64,000 nt of DNA from Bacteroidales bacterium (GCA_023667095.1 JAMPAT010000017.1:1-64000); one strand, 5' to 3'. Positions 41,053 to 60,140 are shown, counted from the stretch's first letter. Numbers and translations are program-made. Notes: generated from the sequence alone by a model not told the origin.

Positions 41053-41082
41053 TTGTAATAATCAATATTTTCTCTATATTTG
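41053..41082 (+). promoter_or_regulatory. Promoter of the kinase/cell-wall cluster (TTG-N19-TATATTTG)
   Basis: TTG at 41053-41055 and TATATTTG at 41075-41082 are separated by exactly 19 bases, the best promoter match in the window. Transcription would start near 41090, giving a leader of about 220 nt. Confidence 0.7.
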
Positions 41083-41148
41083 CAGACAGAAAGTGCAAAA
41101 CTTTTTAGACAGATAAATATTTGAAAACATAACAGTTTTCTTATTGCC

Positions 41149-41286
41149 GTACTCTAGAAATCGCCAAAATTACTCAGCAGTCGCAGGCAATAAGGAGCCG
41201 CACCCGTATAAGGTGCGGACTTTCCTTATGCGATTGCAGGTGTTTGGCGATACCTTAGAGTGCAGACGGGGAGTCCGCACTTTTTT
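41149..41286 (+). promoter_or_regulatory. Structured leader with terminator/antiterminator architecture
   Basis: Nested stems are visible: P1 41149-41168 with 41243-41263 (imperfect), P2 41177-41184 with 41230-41237, P3 41190-41196 with 41223-41229, P4 41198-41204 with 41212-41218. The right arm of P4 (GGTGCGG) can instead pair with 41272-41280 (AGTCCGCAC), a stem extendable to about 14 bp and followed directly by six T. The two pairings exclude each other, as in a riboswitch or attenuator. It lies between the promoter and the SEDS-PBP start. I do not recognise the aptamer class. Confidence 0.65.
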
Positions 41287-41311
41287 GTTTTACTTGCAAG
41301 GGGTCATCATT

Positions 41312-44300
41312 ATGAAAAAATATTCATTTGTCATCGTCTCACTGATATTGGGGATTCTGTTCCTTAAATTGTCGCATAACTACTCTGACAGGTTTTCCGA
41401 TATTAAGAAGTCCTATGGAGACAATACTTCCATCAATCTTGTAAAAGATGTTGATGTAAAGAAAATAAGCACAGTCTTGTTTGACAATAATTATATGCAG
41501 GACAAGCAGGATGCTGATTTTCTTGCAGAACAATTGGCAGGGAAACTTAAATCTGGACAGGTTCTGTCAGAATTGTCGGATCTTAATAAACGTGCATGGC
41601 AGCTGCCTTGTACTGTGATTGATACTTGTAAAAGTGCGGAATTAAGGAAAAAGTTGTATCAGTCTCAGGTGGCATTGGGACTGGATGAGGAATTTAAAGG
41701 AATTGCTGTCGGAGAGTTGGAATCCTATGCTCGTCTTAATGAAAAACATGACGGAAAAATAGAGGTATATGTTAATGCTGAAGATGATAAGGCAAACATT
41801 AACACCGAGGATGATAAGGCTAACTTTCTGAAGAAGATAACTAAAAAAGATAAGAAATGCTGTGTGGGTACAGTCGTCCGTCTGTCAATGCATGACCTTG
41901 ACAGCCTTTCCGGCAGCCCGGAGCGCAGGACAATCTGCTATCTGAAGACAGACGGGAATGGCAAGGCCATATTTGAAGGACTGGATCCAGCATTGTCATA
42001 TAGCGTATTGCCAATCCGTAAAGGGTATGAATATGGAGTATCCAAAGGAACCTTGTCTGGAAGTCTTTCAAGAAGCAGCAAGAATAACTCCCTTTCATTC
42101 TCCTTTACAGAAATGGAGCATAGGATCAGGCTTTTTGATACAGCCACTTTGAGACAGATCAAGGAAGACAAGGCAATGACAGTACGGTCTCCCGAAAAAT
42201 TCAAAAGCATATTGACAATATCCCTTGCAATGTTCTTTATTGCGTGGTGGGGACTGTATCTGTCCGGTATTTTCAGGCGCAGAAGGCTGGATGCCGGAAT
42301 TATGTCTTCAATCATGCTGCTTACCGGAATCTGCCTGATGACGATGTTTTCCATAAATGATCCTTTGACTGATAGACTGTTGGGAATAGAAATGGCTCAG
42401 GGCATTGTATTCGGGATTATAGCTGTTTCCTTGCTTTGTAATGTTGATTTTATCGGATTCTATCAGAATAGATTGCCAGTAGGGTTTGATATACCTTTGG
42501 AGTGCATGAAATGGATATTCAGGCCTTTCCGGGAAAAAGTTGCGTATTTGACTGAAATCCTGACCAGGAAAACAGCGAATGGATTTTATAAGTTATTTGC
42601 TGTCTTGGTTATACTTGTCTGCACGCCTTTTCTTGTCCTGGATCTTTTCCGTATGACAAGGTTAAATGGATTTGTGGACAGGTTATGCAGCAGATTGCCT
42701 AAAGGGACAGGATATCTATTGATAGCTATATTTCTGACAGTCTCCCTGTTCTTGTTTGGCAATGAAGTCGGAGGCATGAAGGTCAACCTTAACCTGCTCG
42801 GCCTGAAATTCCAGCCAAGTGAAATTGCCAAATATCTTGTCGTGATTTTCATGGCAGCTTTCTTTACAGCCAATGCTGACAGTATTGTGAAGTACTCTGA
42901 AAAAGGAAATGCAGGATTGTTTGGAGCAAAATTGAAGATGCTGGCGGCAATGATTGTTGGCCTTGGGATGATGATGCTTCTTTATCTTGCTCTTGGGGAT
43001 ATGGGGCCTGCGCTTATCCTGGCTTTCACTTTCATAATATTATATTCTATAGTCAAGTCAAAGGTAGATATAGAAGGGCTTGATGACAGCCGTCAGCTGG
43101 TAAGGCTTCTGACATGTGACCTGGCTATGCTGCTTTATGGTGCAATATCATTTATTGCCTGTCTTTATGTCGGGAATCTTGCCGGAAGCATGGGAGCATT
43201 CTGCATAGGATGGTTTGCAGTCTGGATTATTTTCGGGATATGCAGGAAACAGATTTTTGAGTCTGCAATCATGTTCAACCTTATCATTGCTGCATTTCTG
43301 TTTGCAGGAAATATCCTTGGGCATATCCCGCAGCTGGAAAGTACGGCAGAACGACTGGAAAGCAGGAATGAAATGTGCTCAAACACCTGGGGAATACTTC
43401 CTGTAGACGGAAATACGGCGGACGCAGGGGAGAACACACAGGTTGCGGAAGGCTTGTGGGGGCTTGCTTCCGGTGGACTGTCAGGACAGGGACTGGGGAA
43501 CGGGGCTCCATATTATATTCCGGCATATCACACCGACATGATACTTGAGAGCATAGGGGAACAGATGGGATTTATCGGGATATCTATGATTCTACTGGCA
43601 TTGGCTGTGCTTTTGAGAAGGACCATGTTGGCGGGTTACAGGACGTCCCATCCATTCCCTTTTTACCTTTGTACAGGAATTGCCATAGTGACTGCTGTAC
43701 AGTTTATTGTAATATCGTTGGGAAGCCTCGGCATAATACCTTTGACAGGTGTAACTGTGCCGTTCCTGAGCTATGGCAGGGTCAGCATGATTCTTAATTT
43801 GGCGGCCTTTGGAATAATCTTGTCTATATCCAGGGATGATAGAAGGCTTTCCGTGAATGAGAATAAAGTTATCACTGACCTTATAAGGCGCAATATCGGG
43901 CAATATAATTATTCTGTCTCGATATTGAGCTGGATGTACTGCATCTTGGCAGTCCTGATATGTGGCACTTTCTTCTATTGGCAGTTCATTGCCAGGGACA
44001 GGACATTGATAAGGCCTGTCTATGTCAATAATTCGAGCGGTGTGCCTGTAATAGAATACAATCCGCGCATTTCCCAGCTGACAAGGAAGATGTATGCCGG
44101 TGACATATATGACCGTAACGGTGTGCTGCTGGCAACCAGTGACCGTTCCAGGCTTGCAAAGGATAAGAAAACATATTCAGGACAAGGGCTTGAATGTGAT
44201 ACATTGAAGCGTCAGCGCAGATATTATCCTTTCGGGGAACATCTGTACTTTATGCTTGGTGACTACAATTCGATGCTCTTCTTTTCTTCAAGTGACAAAA

Positions 44301-45772
44301 GTCCCCGGGGATATATGGCTGAGGCCAGGCACCTGTCTGAATTACGTGGCTATGACAATATATTGCGTGATTCAGAGGGGAAGCCAGTCCGGGTGGATTT
44401 GTCTTCAAATAGCTATAGACCGGAAAAATATTTCTCTTCAGATTATGAATTTTTCCAGAAAGGAGTACAGCTGAGGGATCATTCTGCGCTTATTCCATAT
44501 CTCAAGGCCGGTGTCAACAGTGACAAGGTAAGGCGTCTGAACGGGAGGAATACGAGACTACTTGAACGGGAGACTGTCAAGCCTCAGGATATCCAGCTTA
44601 CAATAGATGCCTGCCTGCAGACAAAGTTACAGCAAAACATGAAAGCACATATGAGTAAGAAAGATTATTCCGGAATGGAATGGAACAAGGTCAGGGCTTC
44701 TGTCGTTGTACTTGATGCAAGGAATGGAGACCTTCTTGCATCTGCGAATTATCCTTTACCGGATTATGATGTACTGAAGACGTCTCCTGATGTGTATTCC
44801 GATTACCGGAAAGGGGCTGATTGGAAAGCCTATACTGATATGGATCTGGGGCTTGTCTATCCTACAGCACCTGGTTCTACAGCAAAGGTCATGTCTTCAT
44901 TGGCAGCTTTTCGAAAAGATGAGAGGCTCGCTTCCAAGAAGAAATACTATATCTATGAGGAGGAAAAGATATACGGTAATGAACCATCTGGAAGATATCT
45001 GGATATGAAAGATGCGTTAAGGTATTCGTCGAACTGTTACTTTATCAATCTTGTCAATGATATGTCACTCTATGATGAACTTGCCTATATCTATGGCAAT
45101 GCAGGAGTCAATGTCAACGGAGCTGCTCCATATATATTTGAGTATAGTTTGCCATCTGAAGACTGGAACCGGCGGGTGACATCACAGCAAGGGCCTTGTG
45201 TCAGTGCTTATGAAAAATATATAAAAAGCGGTGTAAAGGAAAAAATGAATGACAAAAAACCTGCTGCATGGTCATGGGCCTGGGGACAGAATGGAGTAGA
45301 CGCAACTCCTGCTGCCATGGCACGTATTGTCTCCGTTGCCGCAAATTGCGGTAAGATGCCGAAGACAAGATATCTTCTCCAGGATGAAAAAGATGATGTC
45401 GACTATGTTGACAGGGTGAGTGCGGAGCTGCTTAATGAATATTTAAAATTTACTGCGCAGAATCACGATAAGTTTACATCTGCAAAAGGATTTCATGGAG
45501 ATAGAGTCGGAGGTAAGACCGGTACTTCTGAGAGATACTTTGACAGAAGTGAAAATAATAAAAGAAATGACGGATGGTATATCTGTTTTATAGAGAACGC
45601 CAAAATTTCAAAAGTGATCGGCCAGAAGACAGAACTGGACGATTCTCCTCTTGCAGTTGCTGTCCGTATGGAGAGGCTCCCGGGAAAAAACGGGTCAGGA
45701 CGTGCACGGCAGTTGACAAAGGAAGTTGTCTGGACATCATTGGATACATTGGGCTATATAAATAAATTATGA
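41312..45772 (+). CDS. SEDS glycosyltransferase-class B PBP fusion protein
   Basis: A 1486-residue fusion of the two halves of a peptidoglycan synthase. Residues 1-21 are a TM anchor; 22-290 are extracytoplasmic. From about 295 to 850 lies a FtsW/RodA-like polytopic domain: GGMKVNLNLLGLKFQPSEIA, LALGDMGPALIL (conserved Asp), GGLSGQGLGNGAPYYIPAYH and PLTGVTVPFLSYG. From about 870 follows another TM and a transpeptidase domain with PGSTAK (Ser1189, Lys1192), SSN (1239-1241) and KTG (1402-1404). All three transpeptidase motifs are intact. The SEDS signature usually reads SYGGSS; here it is SYGRVS. The long upstream frame from 41144 is rejected because it crosses the structured leader. Expected role: glycan polymerisation and crosslinking in one polypeptide. 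Confidence 0.93.
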   Translation: MKKYSFVIVSLILGILFLKLSHNYSDRFSDIKKSYGDNTSINLVKDVDVKKISTVLFDNNYMQDKQDADFLAEQLAGKLKSGQVLSELSDLNKRAWQLPCTVIDTCKSAELRKKLYQSQVALGLDEEFKGIAVGELESYARLNEKHDGKIEVYVNAEDDKANINTEDDKANFLKKITKKDKKCCVGTVVRLSMHDLDSLSGSPERRTICYLKTDGNGKAIFEGLDPALSYSVLPIRKGYEYGVSKGTLSGSLSRSSKNNSLSFSFTEMEHRIRLFDTATLRQIKEDKAMTVRSPEKFKSILTISLAMFFIAWWGLYLSGIFRRRRLDAGIMSSIMLLTGICLMTMFSINDPLTDRLLGIEMAQGIVFGIIAVSLLCNVDFIGFYQNRLPVGFDIPLECMKWIFRPFREKVAYLTEILTRKTANGFYKLFAVLVILVCTPFLVLDLFRMTRLNGFVDRLCSRLPKGTGYLLIAIFLTVSLFLFGNEVGGMKVNLNLLGLKFQPSEIAKYLVVIFMAAFFTANADSIVKYSEKGNAGLFGAKLKMLAAMIVGLGMMMLLYLALGDMGPALILAFTFIILYSIVKSKVDIEGLDDSRQLVRLLTCDLAMLLYGAISFIACLYVGNLAGSMGAFCIGWFAVWIIFGICRKQIFESAIMFNLIIAAFLFAGNILGHIPQLESTAERLESRNEMCSNTWGILPVDGNTADAGENTQVAEGLWGLASGGLSGQGLGNGAPYYIPAYHTDMILESIGEQMGFIGISMILLALAVLLRRTMLAGYRTSHPFPFYLCTGIAIVTAVQFIVISLGSLGIIPLTGVTVPFLSYGRVSMILNLAAFGIILSISRDDRRLSVNENKVITDLIRRNIGQYNYSVSILSWMYCILAVLICGTFFYWQFIARDRTLIRPVYVNNSSGVPVIEYNPRISQLTRKMYAGDIYDRNGVLLATSDRSRLAKDKKTYSGQGLECDTLKRQRRYYPFGEHLYFMLGDYNSMLFFSSSDKSPRGYMAEARHLSELRGYDNILRDSEGKPVRVDLSSNSYRPEKYFSSDYEFFQKGVQLRDHSALIPYLKAGVNSDKVRRLNGRNTRLLERETVKPQDIQLTIDACLQTKLQQNMKAHMSKKDYSGMEWNKVRASVVVLDARNGDLLASANYPLPDYDVLKTSPDVYSDYRKGADWKAYTDMDLGLVYPTAPGSTAKVMSSLAAFRKDERLASKKKYYIYEEEKIYGNEPSGRYLDMKDALRYSSNCYFINLVNDMSLYDELAYIYGNAGVNVNGAAPYIFEYSLPSEDWNRRVTSQQGPCVSAYEKYIKSGVKEKMNDKKPAAWSWAWGQNGVDATPAAMARIVSVAANCGKMPKTRYLLQDEKDDVDYVDRVSAELLNEYLKFTAQNHDKFTSAKGFHGDRVGGKTGTSERYFDRSENNKRNDGWYICFIENAKISKVIGQKTELDDSPLAVAVRMERLPGKNGSGRARQLTKEVVWTSLDTLGYINKL

Positions 45773-46455
45773 GAAATCTATGTCTATTGATTGCCGTGAT
45801 TGTATTCCCGGCTGTGGCCATTGCCCAGAACTATGATTCCTACCTTCAGGAGGCAAAGGAGCATCTGGAGCAGGGGAATGTGGAGAGTGCAAAGAAGTCA
45901 TATCAGGTGTACCGGAGACTGACGGATAAGACAGATGCCATGTTTGAGGAATTGCTAAAAGAATATGGGCAGAATACGCTGTGGATGAGGTACTGCCGCA
46001 TTTTTGACTTGAATGACAGTACCTTCATGGCTGTCCAGGCACTTGACATGACTTCGGTTTCCCATTATCAGGATGCAAAGATAAAGGCGGAATCGTCAAG
46101 GCTTGGAGGATTTGATGACTGGAGACTTTCAGACCAGGGAGAAATGACTTGTATAATGTCGAATTTGCCATCAGATGAACAAAACGCTCCTTTTTATTGG
46201 ATTGCATCCTGTTACAGAAGTGCATCAGCAAGCCAGACTGTAATTATAAACGGCCGGATTGAACCGATTTCTGAATCATTCAATGAAGAGATATATAAAG
46301 TGCTGGATAAATGTACAGGAGTAAAAGACGTATATGGCCGTTCTGTCAAAACTAAGAATGGAGTTGTTGTGAGTGATACTGAATTCGGTGATAAGGCATA
46401 TTGTGCATGGTATTTCATTGTAAGGACATTCCCTAAAAATGACAAACAATTTTAA
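45769..46455 (+). CDS. Exported TPR protein with DUF1566-like domain
   Basis: A 228-residue secreted protein overlapping the fusion gene by 4 bases (ATGA). The signal peptide ends at AIAQ. Residues 21-60 form a TPR-like pair (YDSYLQEAKEHLEQGNVESA) closely resembling the start of the protein at 51149. The remainder contains LGGFDDWRLSDQGEMTCIM, which looks like the DWRLPT signature of the DUF1566/Lcl C-type-lectin-like fold. A periplasmic or surface sensor or scaffold role is inferred from position between the cell-wall synthase and the kinase. The specific function is unknown. Confidence 0.7.
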   Translation: MRNLCLLIAVIVFPAVAIAQNYDSYLQEAKEHLEQGNVESAKKSYQVYRRLTDKTDAMFEELLKEYGQNTLWMRYCRIFDLNDSTFMAVQALDMTSVSHYQDAKIKAESSRLGGFDDWRLSDQGEMTCIMSNLPSDEQNAPFYWIASCYRSASASQTVIINGRIEPISESFNEEIYKVLDKCTGVKDVYGRSVKTKNGVVVSDTEFGDKAYCAWYFIVRTFPKNDKQF

Positions 46456-46466
46456 TCAGATTCATT

Positions 46467-48143
46467 ATGGCTTTTCTGGAAGAATATACATTGCTTGACG
46501 AATTGGGGCAGGGTGGATATGCAACTGTCTATAAGGTTCGTCACAATAAGTTGGGGTATATACGCGCGGTCCGTGTCCTTAATGCAATAATTGCACATGG
46601 CGAATCAGACAGGACATATCAGAAGTTCCTTGAGGAATGCCGTCTTCTGCTGCGTCTCGGAAACGGTAACCATCCAAACATTGTACATGTCTACCAGCCT
46701 CTCCTGAAGGCACAGCGTGCAATTGTGGAGATGGACTTTGTTGATGGGAAGGACCTGTACCATTACCTTGAAGACAAGTCGTCATTTGTGGAGATTGGCG
46801 ATGTGATGAAGTTTTTGATGGATATTGGCAGTGCATTGGCATACTGTCATCACGACATCTATAGGTTCTGCATGGATAAGGAAGAAGATGATTTGCAGGA
46901 TGACCCTGATGATGGTACAAAGGTATTGCTTGATGAAAAGAAGCGTGCCGGGCTAATCGCAAAGTACCGTGTCATCCACAATGATATACATTCGGGAAAT
47001 ATTATCCGCCGTGAGGACGGCAGCTATGTCTTGTTGGATTTTGGACTTGCAATAGAAGGGGACAGTGTAGTCAGAAGCAGCAGACGTAAAAATGGAGCAC
47101 CTGAATTCAAGGCTCCTGAGAAATGGGACAATGACAGTATATTGACAACTCAGTCAGATATATACAGTTTCGGTATCGTCCTGTATGAGTTCCTGGCGGG
47201 GCGTGTCCCGTTTATGTTTGACAAGAAGAATTCAAATCCCGTTGAGGCTGAATATCTGCTTGGGAAAGCTCATAAGGAACAGGCTCCTGAACCTGTGTAT
47301 AGCTTGAGGAAGCAGGCCTTTGAACGCTCACATCCAGGAGAGACATACGTGAAGGACTATCCTGATTGGCTCGAGTCCCTTATCATGAAATGCCTTTCAA
47401 AGAATATGGAAGACAGGTTCACGAGCGGAAAGGAATTGTTCTCGTACATTAAGGGGCATATCAATGAGGATACCGCTACAGAAGAACTTGCTGCGCTGAA
47501 AAAGGAAAATGCAGACCTTGTCAGCCAGCTGAAGCAGATAAGCATTATGAACATTGTCGAATCCCGTTCAAAAGATGCATGGGAAAACCTGCTTACAGAC
47601 CTCCAGGGCCAGCTGCGTGAATCCATAGCAGAGAAAGAGGGCCTGTACAATAGGATACAGGTGTTGCAGACCCGTATAGAACAGTCAGAAAAGGAACTTG
47701 CAGCAGCAAGGGCGGACAGGAAACCGTCATTTTACAGTCCGATATGGAAAATCATGTCGGTGCTGATGCTTGTTGCCGCACTGGTGCTCGGATATCTGTA
47801 TGGTTCAAACGTTGGAACAGAAAGGCCTCCTGCCTCTTTTGTATCAGACAGTACAATAGTCAACAGTGATGATGTGCGTGAGAGATATAAGGAACTGATT
47901 TCCCAAAAAGAAAAGAGGGTTATGGAGCAGGAAAAGCAGATACAGTCGCTTAACCGTCAGATTGCAGAGCTGAAGCAGAATAATCAGGCTGGAGTCGACC
48001 AAAGTATCATTGATGAAAAGGACAGGACAATATCTGAACTAAAGTCAGAAGTAGGCAAGCTTCAGTCTTCTGTAGGCAGTCTGCAAAGGCAGATTGCAGC
48101 AAAGGACAAAGAAATATCTGTGTTGAAAGATGTATATAAATAA
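46467..48143 (+). CDS. Transmembrane Ser/Thr protein kinase-like protein
   Basis: A 558-residue protein. The kinase-like domain (about 7-325) has a glycine loop (LGQGGYATVYKV), DFG at 191-193, and APEFKAPEKWD plus SDIYSFGIVLYE. The catalytic loop is HNDIHSGN (Asp173, Asn178), resembling small-molecule and APH-type kinases more than HRDLKPxN. The beta-3 Lys position reads AVRVL, with Arg36 in place of Lys. A cytoplasmic coiled coil (about 335-420), a single TM (about 425-448) and a periplasmic coiled coil follow, with no PASTA repeats. It is likely a membrane receptor kinase or pseudokinase for the FHA proteins encoded next. Gap to the previous gene is 11 bases. Confidence 0.9.
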   Translation: MAFLEEYTLLDELGQGGYATVYKVRHNKLGYIRAVRVLNAIIAHGESDRTYQKFLEECRLLLRLGNGNHPNIVHVYQPLLKAQRAIVEMDFVDGKDLYHYLEDKSSFVEIGDVMKFLMDIGSALAYCHHDIYRFCMDKEEDDLQDDPDDGTKVLLDEKKRAGLIAKYRVIHNDIHSGNIIRREDGSYVLLDFGLAIEGDSVVRSSRRKNGAPEFKAPEKWDNDSILTTQSDIYSFGIVLYEFLAGRVPFMFDKKNSNPVEAEYLLGKAHKEQAPEPVYSLRKQAFERSHPGETYVKDYPDWLESLIMKCLSKNMEDRFTSGKELFSYIKGHINEDTATEELAALKKENADLVSQLKQISIMNIVESRSKDAWENLLTDLQGQLRESIAEKEGLYNRIQVLQTRIEQSEKELAAARADRKPSFYSPIWKIMSVLMLVAALVLGYLYGSNVGTERPPASFVSDSTIVNSDDVRERYKELISQKEKRVMEQEKQIQSLNRQIAELKQNNQAGVDQSIIDEKDRTISELKSEVGKLQSSVGSLQRQIAAKDKEISVLKDVYK

Positions 48144-48148
48144 TAGCC

Positions 48149-49021
48149 ATGGGAAAAAATATATTTGAAAGAATTGCCGGTTGGATAAATGGTCAGGAAG
48201 ATAATGGGCTTGCGGAAAAAACCGGGCAGCCGGTGGCTGCAAAGGCAGACATGGATGAAAGCAGCAAGTCTGTGAAAGGTGAGTCGAATGCAATCGAAAA
48301 AAGGGAAAATCTGATAAAGTCAGTTAAAGATACATTGAATGCAAACTACAGGGGACAGAAATGCAGCTTTGAAGATAAGGTCCTGTCTGTCTGCATTATG
48401 GACAACCTGTTCTATGATTCTCTGGATAAGGATGATTTTGAGAGGCAGTTGCAGACAGTGGTATATGATGAACTTGGGTATGCCTTTGCAAAGGTGGAAA
48501 CCATATCCGGACCGTTGCATGAAGATGAATCATATTCAAAGGTTTCTGACAGTGTATTCCTGCAGGTCAATCCGGTAAAGAAGGCATTAGTCGTCAGGAA
48601 AGCCATTATAATGCCTGTTGAAGGATGTGGCTCAACAGTCAGTGAAAGCTATGTCCTTGATTCGGAGGAGATTTCTGGAAATCCTGGAGCGAGGTACAAT
48701 ATAGGTGCTGGAAAGCATCCTATGATGGCTGACAGCAGTCATCGTAAAAACTACATTGCAATTGATGATGATCCGTTTTCTCCTGATTTTGCCAAGAACA
48801 GGTATGTCAGCCGCTCGCATGCATATATCACATATGGGGAAAATGCTGGCTTTATGCTTCATGCGGAACTGGGAGGAACACGCCTGGCCGGCAAACGGAC
48901 ACATATCTACAGGGATTCAGAGAAGATAGAACTGGACAACACACTGATTTCCGAGCCATTGAGGGATGGAGACTATATTGTCCTGAGCAAATATGTTCAC
49001 CTCCTATTTAAAGAAATGTAG
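48149..49021 (+). CDS. FHA-domain protein 1
   Basis: A 290-residue cytosolic protein. The N-terminal half (about 45-160) contains FERQLQTVVYDELGYAFAK, an alpha/beta region reminiscent in position of the DUF3662 domain of actinobacterial FhaA. The C-terminal FHA domain (about 185-288) has the phosphothreonine-binding Ser and Arg in YVSRSHAYI and a following GGTRL/IY turn. It starts 5 bases after the kinase gene. FHA domains bind phosphothreonine, so it should read out the kinase. The N-terminal similarity is a suggestion only. Confidence 0.8.
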   Translation: MGKNIFERIAGWINGQEDNGLAEKTGQPVAAKADMDESSKSVKGESNAIEKRENLIKSVKDTLNANYRGQKCSFEDKVLSVCIMDNLFYDSLDKDDFERQLQTVVYDELGYAFAKVETISGPLHEDESYSKVSDSVFLQVNPVKKALVVRKAIIMPVEGCGSTVSESYVLDSEEISGNPGARYNIGAGKHPMMADSSHRKNYIAIDDDPFSPDFAKNRYVSRSHAYITYGENAGFMLHAELGGTRLAGKRTHIYRDSEKIELDNTLISEPLRDGDYIVLSKYVHLLFKEM

Positions 49022-49039
49022 TAACAGGAATATATCAAC

Positions 49040-50005
49040 ATGGCAAATTTTATAAAAAAGGCTCTTGAATTGTTCAAGGGCGAAGACGGCAAGGCAAGTG
49101 TAGAAGAAAACAATGTCCTTACAAACAAGATTCTTTTGAAGGAACTTGTGTCACATTTCAGGACAATGCTGGAAAAGGAATCTGTGGGACATAGGATGCT
49201 TTACCCTATGTCGTTCAATATCCTTATGGAGTCTGAGGACTATAATGACAGGATTCAGTCCCTTCCGTTTGTTCTCCCTGAGGTCGTAGCTGCATTTTAT
49301 GGCATAATTGACAGTATGAAGGGTGAATTCCCGAATTATGAACCGCCTGCGAAGTATTGGTTTTTTCAATTTTCTTCATGCAGCCAAGGAAATGCAGTTC
49401 TTGCCAATTCTGCCCCTATTGTTCGTAAAGGGCATATTGCAACAGTTTCTACGCTGATGACATTCGATATCAGGGAAGCCCGCAATACGTTTGCGGAAAG
49501 CAATACAAGGGTTTCTATCAAATTGGATGATTCCAATGTAATGAATGATGTGAATGTAAATCAGGAAGCTATCAAGACTCTGGATATAATTGGAAACAAT
49601 ATTTTTACCTATAATTTTGATAAGAGCCTGAGCTGTGATTCGTCACGTATCAAGGATTCGTCAAATATGGCAGAAGTCACCGGACTTGCAGTGCTGTCTT
49701 ATTCGCGTGGCGGGAAGAATTATCATTTTACTATGAAAGACAATCTGATACATATTTCAGGCAAGAACGAGAAACGTACTGGACGTTCATTCTTCATTCT
49801 TGAAACTGTAGATGTCAAAGATTCTCATGTACAGATTAAATATGTCCCGGAGGAAAAGAAATTCCAGATTGCCGCCTTTGGCCTGGTGCGGTTGAATGGA
49901 CGTAAATTGACAGAGAGCAGCGGTGCTCCTCAATGGCATAGCCTTGCAAATAATTCGAGCATCTTTATAAATGATGAGATCAGTGTCAAATTTGAGATCA
50001 AATGA
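49040..50005 (+). CDS. FHA-like protein 2
   Basis: A 321-residue cytosolic protein. The last 100 residues look like a degenerate FHA domain: SHVQIKYVPEEKKFQIAAFG, then VRLNGRKL (the usual GTxVNG turn), then SIFINDEISVKFE. The N-terminal 180 residues have no domain I recognise but share the layout of FHA protein 1, with an alpha/beta region before the FHA. The usual binding Arg is not clear, so phosphopeptide binding is uncertain. Overlaps the phosphatase start by 4 bases. Confidence 0.65.
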   Translation: MANFIKKALELFKGEDGKASVEENNVLTNKILLKELVSHFRTMLEKESVGHRMLYPMSFNILMESEDYNDRIQSLPFVLPEVVAAFYGIIDSMKGEFPNYEPPAKYWFFQFSSCSQGNAVLANSAPIVRKGHIATVSTLMTFDIREARNTFAESNTRVSIKLDDSNVMNDVNVNQEAIKTLDIIGNNIFTYNFDKSLSCDSSRIKDSSNMAEVTGLAVLSYSRGGKNYHFTMKDNLIHISGKNEKRTGRSFFILETVDVKDSHVQIKYVPEEKKFQIAAFGLVRLNGRKLTESSGAPQWHSLANNSSIFINDEISVKFEIK

Positions 50006-51138
50006 GTATGGAAAGCATAAAGTTCTGTGGCAATACTGACCTTGGCAAGGTCCGCACAAACAATGAGGATGCATACATCGTACAGAATATATGGGATGAG
50101 AATCATGTCCTGGCTGTTGCCATTGACGGTGTCGGGGGATATGAAGGTGGTGAAGTCGCATCCGGTATGGCAAAGAAATATATTGTAGAATATCTTGAGA
50201 ATTATTCAAATGGAGAACGGATTGAACTGTTGAAACAGGCTGTGGTCTATGCCAATAACAATATATTTTCTGCGCGTAGGGAACTTCACCAGTATTCGAG
50301 CATGAGCTGTGTCCTGACAGCAATAATTGTGGATGTCACCGGCAGGTGTGTACATATGGCGCATGTAGGTGATACGCGTCTTTATCAATATTCAGACGAT
50401 GAACTTGTGAAACTGTCACATGACCATTCGCTTGTCGGGTATCGGGAAGAGATCGGTGAATTGACGGAAGATGAGGCGATGCACCATCCGCAGAGGAATG
50501 TCATTGGGCGAGATGTCGGGTCAACATACCTGGATGGCAATGTGGGTGAATATGTTGAGACAGCAACATTTCCGCTTCTGCCAAAATCTGACCTGCTCCT
50601 TTGTTCTGACGGATTGTGCGATATGCTTAAATCTGTGGAGATAAAGTCTGTGCTTGAGACGAAATGTACGGTTGAGGAAAAGGTTGGCCAGTTGATTGCC
50701 GCTGCAAATGAAGCAGGCGGAAAGGATAATGTCACTGTTGTTCTGGTCGAAGTAGATATGGATTTGGAGGCTGATGAACCTCTTGTTGAAGACGGCAATG
50801 GGCATGAAGAGGAGAATATGCCTGATAATATCTCTGAAGATATGGCAGTTGACAAGGGTACATCCTTGAATTGGAAGATTAGTAAAAAATATTGGCGTCC
50901 TTGGATATTGGCTGCTGTCGTCGCATTTGCCATGTTCGTTGTGGGATTCATGTCAGGAATGTATGCTGAACGTAATGGAGTGCTCCACAAAGCATCTGAC
51001 AATGTTCCGGAGTCCATGGACTGCTGTCGTGATTCTGTAATTCTCAGATTGCAGAAAGATACAATGGTGCTGCACCGTCAGATTGCAGAGAGGGATTCGG
51101 TAATCAATGTTTTGAAAGTGGCTTTGGATAATAACTAA
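50002..51138 (+). CDS. Transmembrane PP2C-family Ser/Thr phosphatase
   Basis: A 378-residue PP2C (PPM) phosphatase with a C-terminal TM. Metal-site and core motifs are all there: RTNNEDAY, AIDGVGGYEGG, HVGDTRLY, LLCSDGLCDML and GGKDNVTVVLVEV. After the domain (about 1-252) an acidic linker leads to a TM at about 298-318 and a short periplasmic tail with coiled-coil-like heptads. It is the expected counter-enzyme of the kinase. A second copy without TM is at 59379. It overlaps the FHA-like gene by 4 bases, suggesting translational coupling. Confidence 0.93.
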   Translation: MSMESIKFCGNTDLGKVRTNNEDAYIVQNIWDENHVLAVAIDGVGGYEGGEVASGMAKKYIVEYLENYSNGERIELLKQAVVYANNNIFSARRELHQYSSMSCVLTAIIVDVTGRCVHMAHVGDTRLYQYSDDELVKLSHDHSLVGYREEIGELTEDEAMHHPQRNVIGRDVGSTYLDGNVGEYVETATFPLLPKSDLLLCSDGLCDMLKSVEIKSVLETKCTVEEKVGQLIAAANEAGGKDNVTVVLVEVDMDLEADEPLVEDGNGHEEENMPDNISEDMAVDKGTSLNWKISKKYWRPWILAAVVAFAMFVVGFMSGMYAERNGVLHKASDNVPESMDCCRDSVILRLQKDTMVLHRQIAERDSVINVLKVALDNN

Positions 51139-51148
51139 ATTACTTAAT

Positions 51149-52162
51149 ATGAATAAATTATTGACTTTGCTTTTTGCGCTGTTGCTGTCTGTTGGAACAG
51201 CTGAGGTGTATTCTCAGGATTATGGTTCCTATCTGCAGACGGCTAAGGAGCATTTTGATGCCGGACGTTATGAATCTGCACAGAAGGCGTTGGCTGTATA
51301 CTGTAAACTGACTGGAAAGGCTGAGACGGAATTTGAGCAGAAGATATGCATTTGTATTGAGTATGTCCGTCTTGCTGAGCAGGCGGAGAAGGAACAGAAG
51401 TATAAGGAGGCTATTGACTGGTATAATAAGGTCGTCCAGATTAATCCGAACGACAATGGTATCACTTCTGAAATCAGTAGGCTTACGGCTTTGAATAAAT
51501 CATCAAGTCCAATATTACAGGCTACTTCTCCATCTGTAGAAGTAAAAGAAGTGCAGAAACATCATGTAAGGAAAAATATATTTAAACCTCAGAGGGGCGG
51601 CTTTAGTATGATGCTGCTTAGTTCATTTGAACGTAAGGGACCTTTGGGAATGGGAATATATTTTAACAGGTCATATTTTCAGTTTGGACTTGATTTTGTG
51701 CTTTCCAATGAATTTGCTGATGCAAGCGGAATAGATACAGATAAGATATATTTATCATCAGAACAGGAACTTATCTCCGAAAAGTTCTTTTTGATTGATG
51801 AATCTGAAATACTTGCGAAAGATGGGAGATTATGGAAAGTGGAAAGTAATTATGTCTATCCACGTGCACAGTTGACAGTATCTCCTGGAATTAATCTCAA
51901 ATATCTGTCTGTCAATTGTGGATTGGGTGTATTCCTATGTGAGGATTTAAATATGACTCACTATCTGATACAGACTGATGGCATGAATGAATATATGGCT
52001 TCAATGAAGGTTAAGCCATACTTTCTTGTCAGACCGACCATTATTGGGTATATTCCAATAGGACGTAATCATAATGGGATGTCTGTTAGTCTTGGATATA
52101 ATATTGTACCAGGGGCAAAGCCTATGAATGGCTTTCTTTTCGGTATAGGATTCTTTATCTAA
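51149..52162 (+). CDS. Exported TPR protein with beta-rich C-terminus
   Basis: A 337-residue secreted protein starting 10 bases after the phosphatase. The signal peptide ends near EVYSQ. Residues 25-120 are TPR-like (YGSYLQTAKEHFDAGRYESA, a close relative of the start of the 45769 protein). Residues 140-337 alternate hydrophobic and polar residues and end in GFLFGIGFFI, as outer-membrane barrels do. It could tie the kinase system to the outer membrane. The function is not known. Confidence 0.65.
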   Translation: MNKLLTLLFALLLSVGTAEVYSQDYGSYLQTAKEHFDAGRYESAQKALAVYCKLTGKAETEFEQKICICIEYVRLAEQAEKEQKYKEAIDWYNKVVQINPNDNGITSEISRLTALNKSSSPILQATSPSVEVKEVQKHHVRKNIFKPQRGGFSMMLLSSFERKGPLGMGIYFNRSYFQFGLDFVLSNEFADASGIDTDKIYLSSEQELISEKFFLIDESEILAKDGRLWKVESNYVYPRAQLTVSPGINLKYLSVNCGLGVFLCEDLNMTHYLIQTDGMNEYMASMKVKPYFLVRPTIIGYIPIGRNHNGMSVSLGYNIVPGAKPMNGFLFGIGFFI

Positions 52163-52163
52163 A

Positions 52164-52814
52164 ATGAAATTACTTAAACTGATATACTACCCCGTAATTC
52201 TGCTGCTGATAGTATTGTCAGCAATGGAACTGTGGCCTGCATTGGGGTATGCATTCGAAAACCTTGATGGCTACAGGTGGTTCGGGGCTGGTATTTTGGG
52301 GTATTTCCTGCTTCGTCTATTGCCGTTGTGGAGAAAGAACGAGGATATAATTGAGACTTTTACGCATGAATTTACACACATGCTTGTAGGCATGATGTTT
52401 TTTCACAAGATTCATGGTATTTCTGCTGAGGACAGGAATGGCGGTGCCGTGATCCATAGCGGACGTCTTGGGAATATTTTTATTGCACTGTCTCCATATT
52501 GTTTCCCGGTATTTACATATTTCCTTATGGCTCTCGGAATGCTTGGTGCAGCAAAGCAGATGTATGTCTTTGACTTGCTGATTGGTTTGTCTGCTGCTTT
52601 CCATACCGGATGTTTTGCAAGGCAGACACGGTTATACCAGACTGACATACAGGGCCAGGGATATGTGAGGTCTTTTCTGTTTCTTGCATTTTTCTGGATG
52701 TTCAATCTGACCGTGATTCTTCTTGATGTCCGTAAAGGTCTTTGGGAGGCTGTCTTATATATCTTCCAGCATTATTGGTCAGATGCTGTTGCGTTGTGGA
52801 ATATGGTATTCTGA
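52164..52814 (+). CDS. Membrane metallopeptidase-like protein with HExxH (M50-like)
   Basis: A 216-residue polytopic membrane protein beginning 1 base after the previous gene. HEFTH at residues 68-72 is a zinc-site HExxH at the end of a cytoplasmic loop followed by a hydrophobic helix, which is the layout of site-2-type proteases. No third ligand motif (NxxPxxxLDG) of classical M50 is evident; NIFIALSPYCFPVF may be an equivalent. About five TM helices. It could cut a membrane-bound signalling partner or release the cysteine-rich peptide; both are speculation from position. Confidence 0.6.
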   Translation: MKLLKLIYYPVILLLIVLSAMELWPALGYAFENLDGYRWFGAGILGYFLLRLLPLWRKNEDIIETFTHEFTHMLVGMMFFHKIHGISAEDRNGGAVIHSGRLGNIFIALSPYCFPVFTYFLMALGMLGAAKQMYVFDLLIGLSAAFHTGCFARQTRLYQTDIQGQGYVRSFLFLAFFWMFNLTVILLDVRKGLWEAVLYIFQHYWSDAVALWNMVF

Positions 52815-53140: not shown

Positions 53141-54268
53141 ATGATGAAGTACTCCAGTAGATATATTTGCATTACAACAAATGTAATGTGTAATTTGAAT
53201 TGTGTATATTGTTATGAAGATAAGACAAGTAAGAAAACATTTGATCTAAATGCTTCTAAAGCTAAATTAGCTGAATATTTGTCAGAGAAAACTGAAACTG
53301 GGACATTGATTGATTTACATGGAGGTGAACCGTTGATTGTCTTTTCTAAGATTAAGGAATTGTGCGAATGGTTGTGGACGCAAGATTTTCCAGAAGAGTT
53401 TAAAGTCTTTTGTACATCAAATGGAACATTGGTACATGGTAAAGTTCAGGAATGGCTTTGGGAACATAAGGATAAATTTACTTTAGGTCTAAGTTTAGAT
53501 GGACATCGTCAGATGCATAATGCCAATAGATCAAATTCTTTTGACTTGATTGATCTGGACTTCTTTTTAAGGACTTGGCCTTATCAAGGAGTGAAAATGA
53601 CAATAAGTCCACATACAATAAATACTTTGGCTGAAGGTGTTATATTTCTTCATGAAAGAGGTTTTGTAGATATCCGTGTCAATCTTGCTGAAATGGTAGA
53701 TTGGAATAAAGAGAGTTATTTGGAGATTTATCGTCGTGAACTTGGTAAGCTAGGAGAATATTATCTTGAGCATCCTGGTTTAAGTCCATGCTCATTATTT
53801 AAAGTTCCTTTCTTTAGGATAGTGAATGATATGAAGAATGAAAAATGGTGTGGGGCAGGATCTATGCATGCACGTGATATTAGTGGTGATAAAGAATATC
53901 CATGTCATTTGTTCTTTGAATCAGTGTGTGGAAAGGAGAAGTCTGAAAAAAGTTTTGAAATAGATTTTAATAATCCAGATAATCTTGTCTCAGAAGAATG
54001 TAAAGATTGCGCATTCCTACCTATTTGTCCGACTTGTTATGGCGCAAATTATATATCAAGAGGAAATATTGCTTATCGTGATATGAGTATTTGCCGGTTG
54101 CATAAGGTGAGGTTTGTGGAAGTTTGCAAATATGAGTATTCCAGAATTGTTTCCAATAAAACAGAATTGTCAGATGTGAATAATGACGAAAAGTACCGGA
54201 GAGTCTATACTTTGGATGCAATCAAAAAATTATTGCCGTCATTAAGGGAACTTGATTCATCAATATAG
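53141..54268 (+). CDS. SPASM-domain radical SAM peptide maturase
   Basis: A 375-residue radical-SAM enzyme. The 4Fe-4S cluster motif is CNLNCVYC (Cys17, 21, 24), and HGGEP is the SAM-binding segment. The C-terminal SPASM region carries paired Cys clusters (CGAGS, YPCHLF, CKDCAFLPICPTCYG and later CRLH), fitting two auxiliary clusters. Such enzymes in this context (anSME and sactipeptide or ranthipeptide maturases) act on a peptide substrate. The neighbouring Cys-rich peptide is the obvious candidate. GC content here is clearly lower than in the housekeeping genes, suggesting transfer. Confidence 0.93.
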   Translation: MMKYSSRYICITTNVMCNLNCVYCYEDKTSKKTFDLNASKAKLAEYLSEKTETGTLIDLHGGEPLIVFSKIKELCEWLWTQDFPEEFKVFCTSNGTLVHGKVQEWLWEHKDKFTLGLSLDGHRQMHNANRSNSFDLIDLDFFLRTWPYQGVKMTISPHTINTLAEGVIFLHERGFVDIRVNLAEMVDWNKESYLEIYRRELGKLGEYYLEHPGLSPCSLFKVPFFRIVNDMKNEKWCGAGSMHARDISGDKEYPCHLFFESVCGKEKSEKSFEIDFNNPDNLVSEECKDCAFLPICPTCYGANYISRGNIAYRDMSICRLHKVRFVEVCKYEYSRIVSNKTELSDVNNDEKYRRVYTLDAIKKLLPSLRELDSSI

Positions 54269-54270
54269 AT

Positions 54271-54831
54271 ATGGTTATAAAGATAAAAAAGAGCATAGGG
54301 GATAATTATATAGATACTTATCAAAATTTTTTTGATAATAAGGAGTTCCGATATTTGTTTTGGGGACACAAGCCTATCAATATAAGCGAGTGGTTGGAGT
54401 CAAATAAAGATGTGTATGAAAGATATTATGTATATGTAGTTAAAAAGTCTCATTTGGAGCAGGAAAGTTATGTGGGATTCTTTCATATTAGACCTATCCC
54501 AGAAAATGTAAAACTTATGGTGGCTCCAGATGCACATGTAAGTATTAGTGGTGGCCTTAATCCTCAATTATTCAATATTGGTATAGGTATATATTCTTGC
54601 GTGGCAATGATAGATTATTATTTTAAAAAGAATCCAGATAAGATAATATATGCCAGCACATTTTCCTATAATATGCGCTCTTTAAAGATGTTAATGGGAA
54701 TAGGGTTTATTAAGCTAGATTGTACGCTATATGATAAGAATCATGTGATTCTTACTAAAACAGATTTTTATAATAGCAGTATTACAAAATATACTATAAA
54801 TAGAGTAAATGTATTTGTGATAAGTGAGTAA
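54271..54831 (+). CDS. GNAT-family N-acetyltransferase
   Basis: A 186-residue protein starting 2 bases after the radical-SAM gene. It shows the GNAT order: a central strand (YVGFFHIRPI), a following helix (GIYSCVAMIDYYFKKN), and the closing FSYNMRSLKMLMGIGFIKLD, where NMRSLKxxxGIGF is the typical RimJ/RimL-like motif. The acyl-CoA loop is less clear. It is AT-rich like its neighbour. Likely a tailoring or self-immunity enzyme of the peptide cassette; the target is unknown. Confidence 0.78.
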   Translation: MVIKIKKSIGDNYIDTYQNFFDNKEFRYLFWGHKPINISEWLESNKDVYERYYVYVVKKSHLEQESYVGFFHIRPIPENVKLMVAPDAHVSISGGLNPQLFNIGIGIYSCVAMIDYYFKKNPDKIIYASTFSYNMRSLKMLMGIGFIKLDCTLYDKNHVILTKTDFYNSSITKYTINRVNVFVISE

Positions 54832-59378: not shown

Positions 59379-60140
59379 ATGGAATGCATGAAGTTCGGTG
59401 GAAAAACAGACGTAGGCAAGGTCCGCACAAATAATGAGGATGCCTTCATCGCACAGAATATATGGGATGAGAATCACATCCTGGCTGTTGCCATTGACGG
59501 TGTCGGGGGATATGAAGGTGGTGAAGTCGCATCTGGGATGGCAAAGAAATATATTGTCGAATATCTCGGGAACTATTCAGATGGAGAACGGCTTGAACTG
59601 TTGAAGCAAGCTGTTATCTATGCCAATAACAATATCTTTTCAGCCAGAAGGAATCTTCCGCAATATTCTGGTATGTGCTGTGTGCTTACGGCAATCCTTG
59701 TTGATCTCACCGGCCGGTGTGTGCATATGGCTCATGTCGGTGACACACGTCTTTACCAATATGCTGACGGTGAACTTGTGAAACTGTCACATGGCCATTC
59801 GCTTGTCGGCTATAGGGAGGAAATAGGTGAATTGACAGAAGATGAGGCTATGCATCATACGCATAGAAATGTCATAGAACGAAGTATCGGCTCCTCATAT
59901 CTTGATTGGGAACATTGTGACTATGTAGAAATAGCGACCTTTCCACTTAAACCACAATCCTTTCTTATGTTGTGCTCTGACGGCTTGTCTGATATGCTTA
60001 AGTCGTGTCAAATCAAGTCTGTGCTTGAGCAGAAATGTACAGTTGAGGAAACGGTTGAACGGTTGATTGCCGCAGCCAATGATGCAGGAGGAAAGGATAA
60101 TGTAACTGTCGTTTTGGTTGAGCTCAGTAGTGCCTGTTAG
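59379..60140 (+). CDS. Soluble PP2C-family Ser/Thr phosphatase, paralogue of the 50002 gene
   Basis: A 253-residue PP2C. All metal motifs are present: RTNNEDAF, AIDGVGGYEGG, HVGDTRLY, LMLCSDGLSDML and GGKDNVTVVLVEL. It is very similar to the domain at 50002 and ends where that protein's acidic linker and TM begin. The DNA in the first third is nearly identical to the first gene (for instance around 59490-59530 against 50112-50152). It is the last gene of the plus-strand cluster. It should dephosphorylate soluble partners, while the other acts at the membrane. Confidence 0.92.
   Translation: MECMKFGGKTDVGKVRTNNEDAFIAQNIWDENHILAVAIDGVGGYEGGEVASGMAKKYIVEYLGNYSDGERLELLKQAVIYANNNIFSARRNLPQYSGMCCVLTAILVDLTGRCVHMAHVGDTRLYQYADGELVKLSHGHSLVGYREEIGELTEDEAMHHTHRNVIERSIGSSYLDWEHCDYVEIATFPLKPQSFLMLCSDGLSDMLKSCQIKSVLEQKCTVEETVERLIAAANDAGGKDNVTVVLVELSSAC

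Follow-up and report, generated by a model that had tools for sequence, protein, structure and literature searches.

Gene clusters that join the synthesis of the cell wall to serine/threonine phosphorylation are represented in Actinobacteria by fhaA-fhaB-pstP-rodA-pbpA-pknA-pknB, and a locus with similar content in a Gram-negative genome raises the question whether the two arose independently or by descent from a common source. The locus occupies positions 41312-51138 of a 64,000-nucleotide stretch from Bacteroidales bacterium (GCA_023667095.1 JAMPAT010000017.1:1-64000), which we refer to as the window. It encodes a fusion of a SEDS protein and a class B penicillin-binding protein (PBP), a membrane Ser/Thr-kinase-fold protein, two forkhead-associated (FHA) proteins and a membrane protein phosphatase 2C (PP2C). 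In bacteria, the linkage of pstP and pknB is conserved in Actinobacteria and, in part, in Firmicutes; in the actinobacterial cluster, knockdown of the pstP operon affects both the wall and the shape of the cell, and the products of fhaA and fhaB recognize phosphothreonine (PMC6554272).

An initial annotation, which had named these genes and left the choice between convergent assembly and deep homology undecided, proved right about the gene set, and for the core of the cluster the choice can now be settled in favor of common descent, based on the SEDS tree and on an FhaA_N domain in deep-branching relatives of one FHA protein. We consider it probable that the locus encodes a dedicated extra wall synthase, a fused SEDS-PBP protein run by its own kinase-FHA-PP2C set, and that it constitutes the Bacteroidota branch of the actinobacterial system. 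The genes are as follows, where F2 (48149-49021) corresponds to FHA1 and F1 (49040-50005) to FHA2:

41312..45772, + strand: SEDS-PBP fusion, ~1486 aa (PF01098 + PF00905)
45769..46455, + strand: short TPR-like secreted protein with a signal-peptide-like N-terminus
46467..48143, + strand: membrane Ser/Thr-kinase-fold protein (PF00069, E=1.7e-35)
48149..49021, + strand: FHA protein F2, with its own N-terminal domain and a predicted FHA domain (AlphaFold, Foldseek, family profile)
49040..50005, + strand: FHA protein F1, probably diverged FhaA-like (AlphaFold, Foldseek, hhalign)
50002..51138, + strand: membrane PP2C phosphatase, PstP/Stp1-like (PF13672, NF033484)

The SEDS-PBP fusion

A single open reading frame matches both PF01098 (E=2.3e-37) and PF00905 (E=2.4e-18), and its product is predicted to consist of an N-terminal segment, a SEDS glycosyltransferase and a class B transpeptidase, in this order. 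A carboxypeptidase-regulatory-like periplasmic domain was seen in the N-terminal segment of relatives (CarboxypepD_reg, E=7e-5 in a Spirosoma relative). The catalytic Asp of the SEDS half (in HTDM) and the SxxK and SxN motifs of the PBP half are present in 90/90 fusions, and the Lys of the KTG motif in 89/90. With the catalytic residues of a SEDS-class B PBP synthase in place, both polymerase and transpeptidase activity are predicted. Separate housekeeping SEDS and PBP genes are present elsewhere in the same genome.

Relationship to the actinobacterial cluster

For comparison with the actinobacterial cluster, which is known from Mycobacterium, we used records of Actinomyces oris, Tsukamurella, Nocardia and Nonomuraea. 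A SEDS tree (45 rows, LG+C20) was built with a small reference set from records filed as plasmids. In it, the fusions share one side of a 100/100 branch with the SEDS proteins of the actinobacterial and Monoglobus FHA/PBP clusters, and the FtsW, RodA and SpoVE proteins of Bacteroidota, Proteobacteria and Firmicutes lie on the opposite side. Speaking of the cluster SEDS proteins as one clade presumes a root among FtsW and RodA. Constraining the fusions to group with FtsW/RodA of Bacteroidota is rejected in the approximately unbiased test (p-AU 3.2e-5), and the grouping holds when the actinobacterial sequences are removed (99/95; p-AU 2.7e-4). Likewise, the best reference is a cluster SEDS protein for 16 of 18 fusions, with the Monoglobus SEDS among the closest.

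The FHA proteins were the least secure of the initial assignments. F2 has only a weak Pfam match (E=0.029) and a Pfam search with F1 as a single protein gave no FHA match; at E<=0.1, PF00498 is found in 23/25 members of the F2 family and in 10/25 of the F1 family. AlphaFold models built on family alignments were compared to solved structures by Foldseek. The best PDB matches of the F2 model (pLDDT 84) are FHA domains (best E 6.7e-5), as are those of the F1 model (pLDDT 76; best E 6.5e-7), whose list includes FHA domains from Mycobacterium complexed with PknB, and from FhaA. Since both models match solved FHA domains best, we accept F1 and F2 as predicted FHA folds, and not as the unrelated folds whose possibility the initial annotation had raised.

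Five deep-branching F1 proteins, all with a good FHA domain, provide the connection to FhaA. In two of them, FhaA_N exceeds the Pfam cut-off of 25 bits (26.5 and 27.4 bits), and three score lower; the FhaA_N-bearing deep F1 proteins and the F1 family can be aligned across 272 columns (hhalign E=2e-16). For these reasons, the best interpretation of F1 of the window is that of a strongly diverged FhaA. Within the F1 family of class Bacteroidia, a direct comparison with FhaA_N gave a probability of 4%, and F1 of the window has no match. For the N-terminus of F2, an FhaA_N fold was considered and rejected, given that the Foldseek match to 2lc0 (E=0.6) is too weak. In deep-lineage F2 proteins, a Swt1-like HEPN domain precedes the FHA domain (L153 11479-12753; L154 11435-12805).

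Finally, the order FHA-PP2C-SEDS-PBP is common to the relatives of the window cluster and to Actinomyces oris (FHA-FHA-PP2C-SEDS-PBP-K-PknB, where K denotes a kinase). Because of the SEDS tree, the FhaA_N domain in deep F1 and this shared gene order, the cluster core appears to be related to the actinobacterial system by descent, and convergence is unlikely. On these comparisons, the window cluster belongs to the pstP-rodA-pbpA-pknB system as a Gram-negative branch with a fused synthase. More tentatively, the cluster SEDS proteins may represent a third ancient lineage beside FtsW and RodA, which spread or was inherited with FhaA, PP2C and a class B PBP in a single module for phosphorylation-controlled wall synthesis, in Gram-positive and Gram-negative phyla alike; we think of this as a serious possibility, but do not count on it. 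If true, the actinobacterial ‘RodA’ belongs to this third lineage and is not the orthologue of E. coli RodA.

Distribution and linkage

The fusion was found in neither the 24 congeners nor the other 392 Bacteroidales sampled. A 395-genome sample of Bacteroidia has it in 9 more genomes (10/395 in all) and a 396-genome sample of the phylum in 14 more, and it also occurs in many named genomes, including Spirosoma, Mucilaginibacter, Pedobacter, Niastella and others. A scan of genome contigs with a single sequence gave nothing, and an alignment-based scan recovered the fusions of the named genomes; a search of phages gave ordinary SEDS matches only. In Spirosoma, a fusion resides on a plasmid, adjoining FHA, PP2C and two kinase genes. 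In the reverse test, the F1 profile recovers exactly the ten fusion-bearing genomes among the 395 Bacteroidia.

To quantify linkage, family profiles were scored at 69 loci with at least 6 kb on either side of the fusion. F2 is present at all 69, F1 at 66, PP2C at 65 and a kinase at 64, with all four at 62, and at none of the loci is a partner gene on the opposite strand. Fusion and kinase genes are thus usually together; their usual separation is what the initial annotation had named as an outcome that would refute it. Gene fusions occur as well: outside class Bacteroidia, PP2C, SEDS and PBP form a single 1384-aa frame (L153 7262-11416), and at another locus (L149) an FHA domain is part of a kinase. 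These fusions support the same linkage picture.

The usual orders are K-F1-PP2C-SEDS/PBP-F2-K and F1-PP2C-K-K-SEDS/PBP-F2. SEDS/PBP is placed first in the window, which has the order SEDS-PBP, TPR, kinase, FHA, FhaA-like, PP2C, and at L069 and L070, the two nearest Bacteroidales relatives. The gene order of the window is rearranged; the claim that it reproduces the actinobacterial cluster holds for the content, but not for the order, which as FhaA-PP2C-SEDS-PBP is instead found in relatives. Within its own genus, the system occurs in 2/101 genomes, and it is scattered and diverse even there, because the same-genus copy G1179 has a different order (F1-PP2C-SEDS/PBP-K-F2) and a fusion that is only 33% identical to that of the window. 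The window cluster is an uncommon accessory operon in a gut-type Bacteroidales genome.

The kinase and the phosphatase

The window kinase has one transmembrane (TM) segment (residues 426-444) with coiled coil on both sides (by eye), and Pfam-type profile searches found no PASTA match in it or in the cluster kinases of relatives examined, in line with the initial description. On the periplasmic side, the cluster kinases vary, with ends that are coiled-coil, proline-rich or of another kind. In Segetibacter, some of them have an SH3-like part at the end (L104 15386-18916; by eye).

The phosphatase (PF13672, E=1.3e-16; NF033484 Stp1, 200 bits) has one C-terminal TM segment and retains the metal-binding residues of PP2Cs. 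Across the phylum, the cluster PP2Cs form one group (100/100); the tree does not decide whether PstP or other PP2Cs are their nearest outside kin. In Spirosoma and G640, membrane PP2Cs have periplasmic repeats that resemble a parallel beta helix (L037 10671-12104; L053 6594-8051; by eye). The window contains a second PP2C domain copy at 59379-60140, which is 82% identical to the first, but lacks the TM segment and the C-terminal part.

Proposed function and alternatives

The genes, their folds, the active-site residues, linkage, co-occurrence and the phylogeny of the SEDS half are observed; that phosphorylation controls the synthase, as the initial annotation suggested, we infer from gene linkage, and the sensing step, the targets of phosphorylation and the direction in which control runs we infer by likening the system to the actinobacterial cluster. 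In our proposal, the fusion would act as an additional peptidoglycan synthase apart from the housekeeping FtsW-FtsI and RodA-PBP2 pairs, with polymerase and cross-linker in one chain. The kinase, through its periplasmic part, would sense the state of the periplasm or the wall and phosphorylate itself and/or the synthase assembly. The two FHA proteins would serve as adaptors in the cytoplasm: F2, with its phosphothreonine site, would dock at the phosphorylated partner, and F1, as an FhaA-like scaffold, would together with F2 allow or block synthesis. The membrane PP2C would then reverse the signal and reset the system.

A related explanation, compatible with this proposal since it concerns the timing of use, is that the fusion is a spare synthase for envelope stress, used when the housekeeping enzymes become limiting. 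The patchy spread (2/101 genomes of the genus, 10/395 Bacteroidia), the plasmid location in Spirosoma and the presence of separate housekeeping synthases would fit such a role, but the sequence gives no sign of inducibility or altered drug sensitivity, and the broad conservation across genera of Sphingobacteriales and Cytophagales is not what it would lead one to expect; we regard it as rather unlikely.

Several findings weigh against a functional kinase-controlled synthase that shares its descent with the actinobacterial system. In the window kinase, the beta-3 Lys is replaced by Arg and the catalytic-loop Lys by His, and its three nearest relatives, encoded at L070 (14286-18655), have the same Arg and His; the changed loop reads IHND[IL]HSGN, and the two exchanges are shared among Bacteroidales cluster kinases. 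Of the four residues that mark an active Hanks-type kinase, the window kinase thus lacks the Lys and has the Glu, the HRD Asp and the DFG Asp. Because of the Arg, it is only a putative kinase, and it may be inactive or have an unusual chemistry. At L069, the cluster has no kinase at all. In F2, SRxH is kept throughout the family and Gly-Arg has become Gly-Ala in the window copy; this Arg is lost in all three Bacteroidales F2 proteins of the family alignment. F1 of the window has the FHA fold and lacks the Ser-Arg motif for phosphothreonine, and in class Bacteroidia, where Ser-Arg is lost, 78/82 F1 proteins have Pro at its position. Given that SRxH is kept in F2 and Ser-Arg is lost in F1 of Bacteroidia, docking that depends on phosphorylation is most plausible via F2, and is shakiest in the window's own lineage. 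As for descent, the kinase tree comprises several subfamilies with weak deep support, in which the cluster kinases do not group with PknB, and the PBP halves of the fusions, PbpA and PBP2 form three groups, whose joining is not decided by the tree.

The exchanges in the kinase and F2 suggest that the signaling circuit may be altered in this genome. One could go further and propose that signaling has decayed or been rewired here and in near relatives, leaving a pseudokinase or nucleotide binder and FHA proteins that serve as phospho-independent scaffolds beside an active synthase. This would account for the Arg and His in all four kinases of the window and L070, when 126/132 members of the kinase family retain the beta-3 Lys (two further non-Lys rows, L109 and L120, look like alignment shifts, because VVALKQ there has a Lys adjoining the column), as well as for the FHA motif losses and the kinase-less L069. 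However, the HxD Asp, the Asn, the DFG Asp and the helix-C Glu in all four kinases and the metal residues of the PP2C are kept, which is unexpected under decay; the PP2C is even duplicated, and the kinase of the same-genus copy G1179 has the Lys (ALKILL, in a partly masked N-lobe). We consider such a decay unlikely. Least of all do we expect a convergent assembly from the FtsW/RodA, PBP2, kinase, FHA and PP2C genes of Bacteroidota: parts were available, with further kinase, PP2C and FHA genes elsewhere in the same genome, and neither the PBP half nor the kinases are clearly nearest to actinobacterial ones, but the placement of the SEDS half (100/100; p-AU 3.2e-5 against SEDS proteins of its own phylum; 16/18 best references), FhaA_N in deep F1 and the shared order FHA-PP2C-SEDS-PBP make it very improbable.

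Operon boundaries and neighboring genes

All six genes at 41312-51138 are on the + strand, with spacings of -4, 11, 5, 18 and -4 bases, which agrees with the short gaps and 4-base overlaps described initially. The proposed start at 41053 could not be upheld: there is only a promoter-like hexamer, and the ATG of the fusion is at 41312. At the other end, the run extends beyond 51138, and since the genes are co-directional and the gaps range from -4 to 18 bases, a single operon reaching 52814 is likely. The additional genes are:

51149..52162, + strand: TPR protein with a signal peptide, probable operon member (TPR_2, E=6e-7; gap 10 bases)
52164..52814, + strand: M50B-like membrane peptidase, probable operon member (PF13398, E=1.9e-7; gap 1 base)
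59379..60140, + strand: soluble second PP2C domain copy, possibly part of the same circuit (82% identity to 50002-51138)

The TPR assignment of the protein at 45769-46455 stands in part: its own TPR similarity is below threshold, but it and the TPR protein encoded at 51149-52162 are partial paralogues (51% over 43 aa). No relative of the shorter protein was found at the other loci searched, and it is specific to the window in this data set.

The region has a G+C content of 41-45%, compared to 47-51% upstream. Congeners were examined for a site of insertion beside clpX: other genes follow clpP-clpX there, and no empty site was defined. This difference on the clpX side is consistent with an accessory insertion. 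Further downstream, 53141-54831 encodes a radical SAM protein with similarity to maturases of CXXX-repeat peptides (TIGR04115 at 114 bits, short of the cut-off) and, after it, a GNAT protein; this stretch has a G+C content of only 33%. Other contigs of the genome contain further kinase loci. At 7527-16380 of L058 (contig C49), a kinase pair, of which one kinase has an FHA-like end (by eye), is found with a 584-aa PP2C. At 8117-10903 of L059 (contig C16), one frame combines transglutaminase-like and kinase-like parts with a TIR/SEFIR-like C-terminus (by eye), and its product looks like a conflict-system protein.

Comparison with known systems

In our literature search, which did not reach subscription papers and preprints, we found no earlier description of the cluster in Bacteroidota. 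Slin_1280 of Spirosoma linguale has been tabulated as an eighth PBP, annotated as ‘FtsW/RodA/SpoVE family protein’ (PMC8225782), and this annotation suggests that it is a SEDS-PBP fusion. A Gram-negative phylum thus has a relative of the actinobacterial-type cluster in which one protein combines polymerase and cross-linker, and this single-chain SEDS-PBP offers itself for structural and biochemical study. The PP2C-synthase fusion of one lineage argues for phosphatase and synthase in one complex. Moreover, the absence of PASTA, the loss of the FhaA phosphopeptide site in Bacteroidia and the loss of the kinase Lys in this lineage are natural experiments that bear on what the system can do without.

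The actinobacterial cluster resembles that of the window in its functions, the membrane-bound PP2C and kinase and the kinship of the SEDS proteins, and that of other Bacteroidota also in the order FhaA-PP2C-SEDS-PBP and in FhaA_N. By contrast, SEDS and PBP are fused in Bacteroidota and have an extra N-terminal periplasmic domain, the kinases have varied ectodomains without PASTA, the FHA motif of F1 is eroded and the system is accessory, beside a full housekeeping set; in the window, the order is rearranged and the kinase has no beta-3 Lys. The PrpC-PrkC/StkP systems of Firmicutes and the FHA-SEDS-PBP cluster of Monoglobus share the kinase-PP2C pairing and a close SEDS (Monoglobus), but their SEDS and PBP proteins are unfused, their kinases are not bound to a fused synthase and PrkC-type kinases carry PASTA. 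Lastly, the RodA-PBP2 and FtsW-FtsI pairs of E. coli are likewise units of a SEDS protein and a class B PBP with the same catalytic residues, but they are encoded by separate genes without neighboring phospho-signaling genes and stand apart in the tree.

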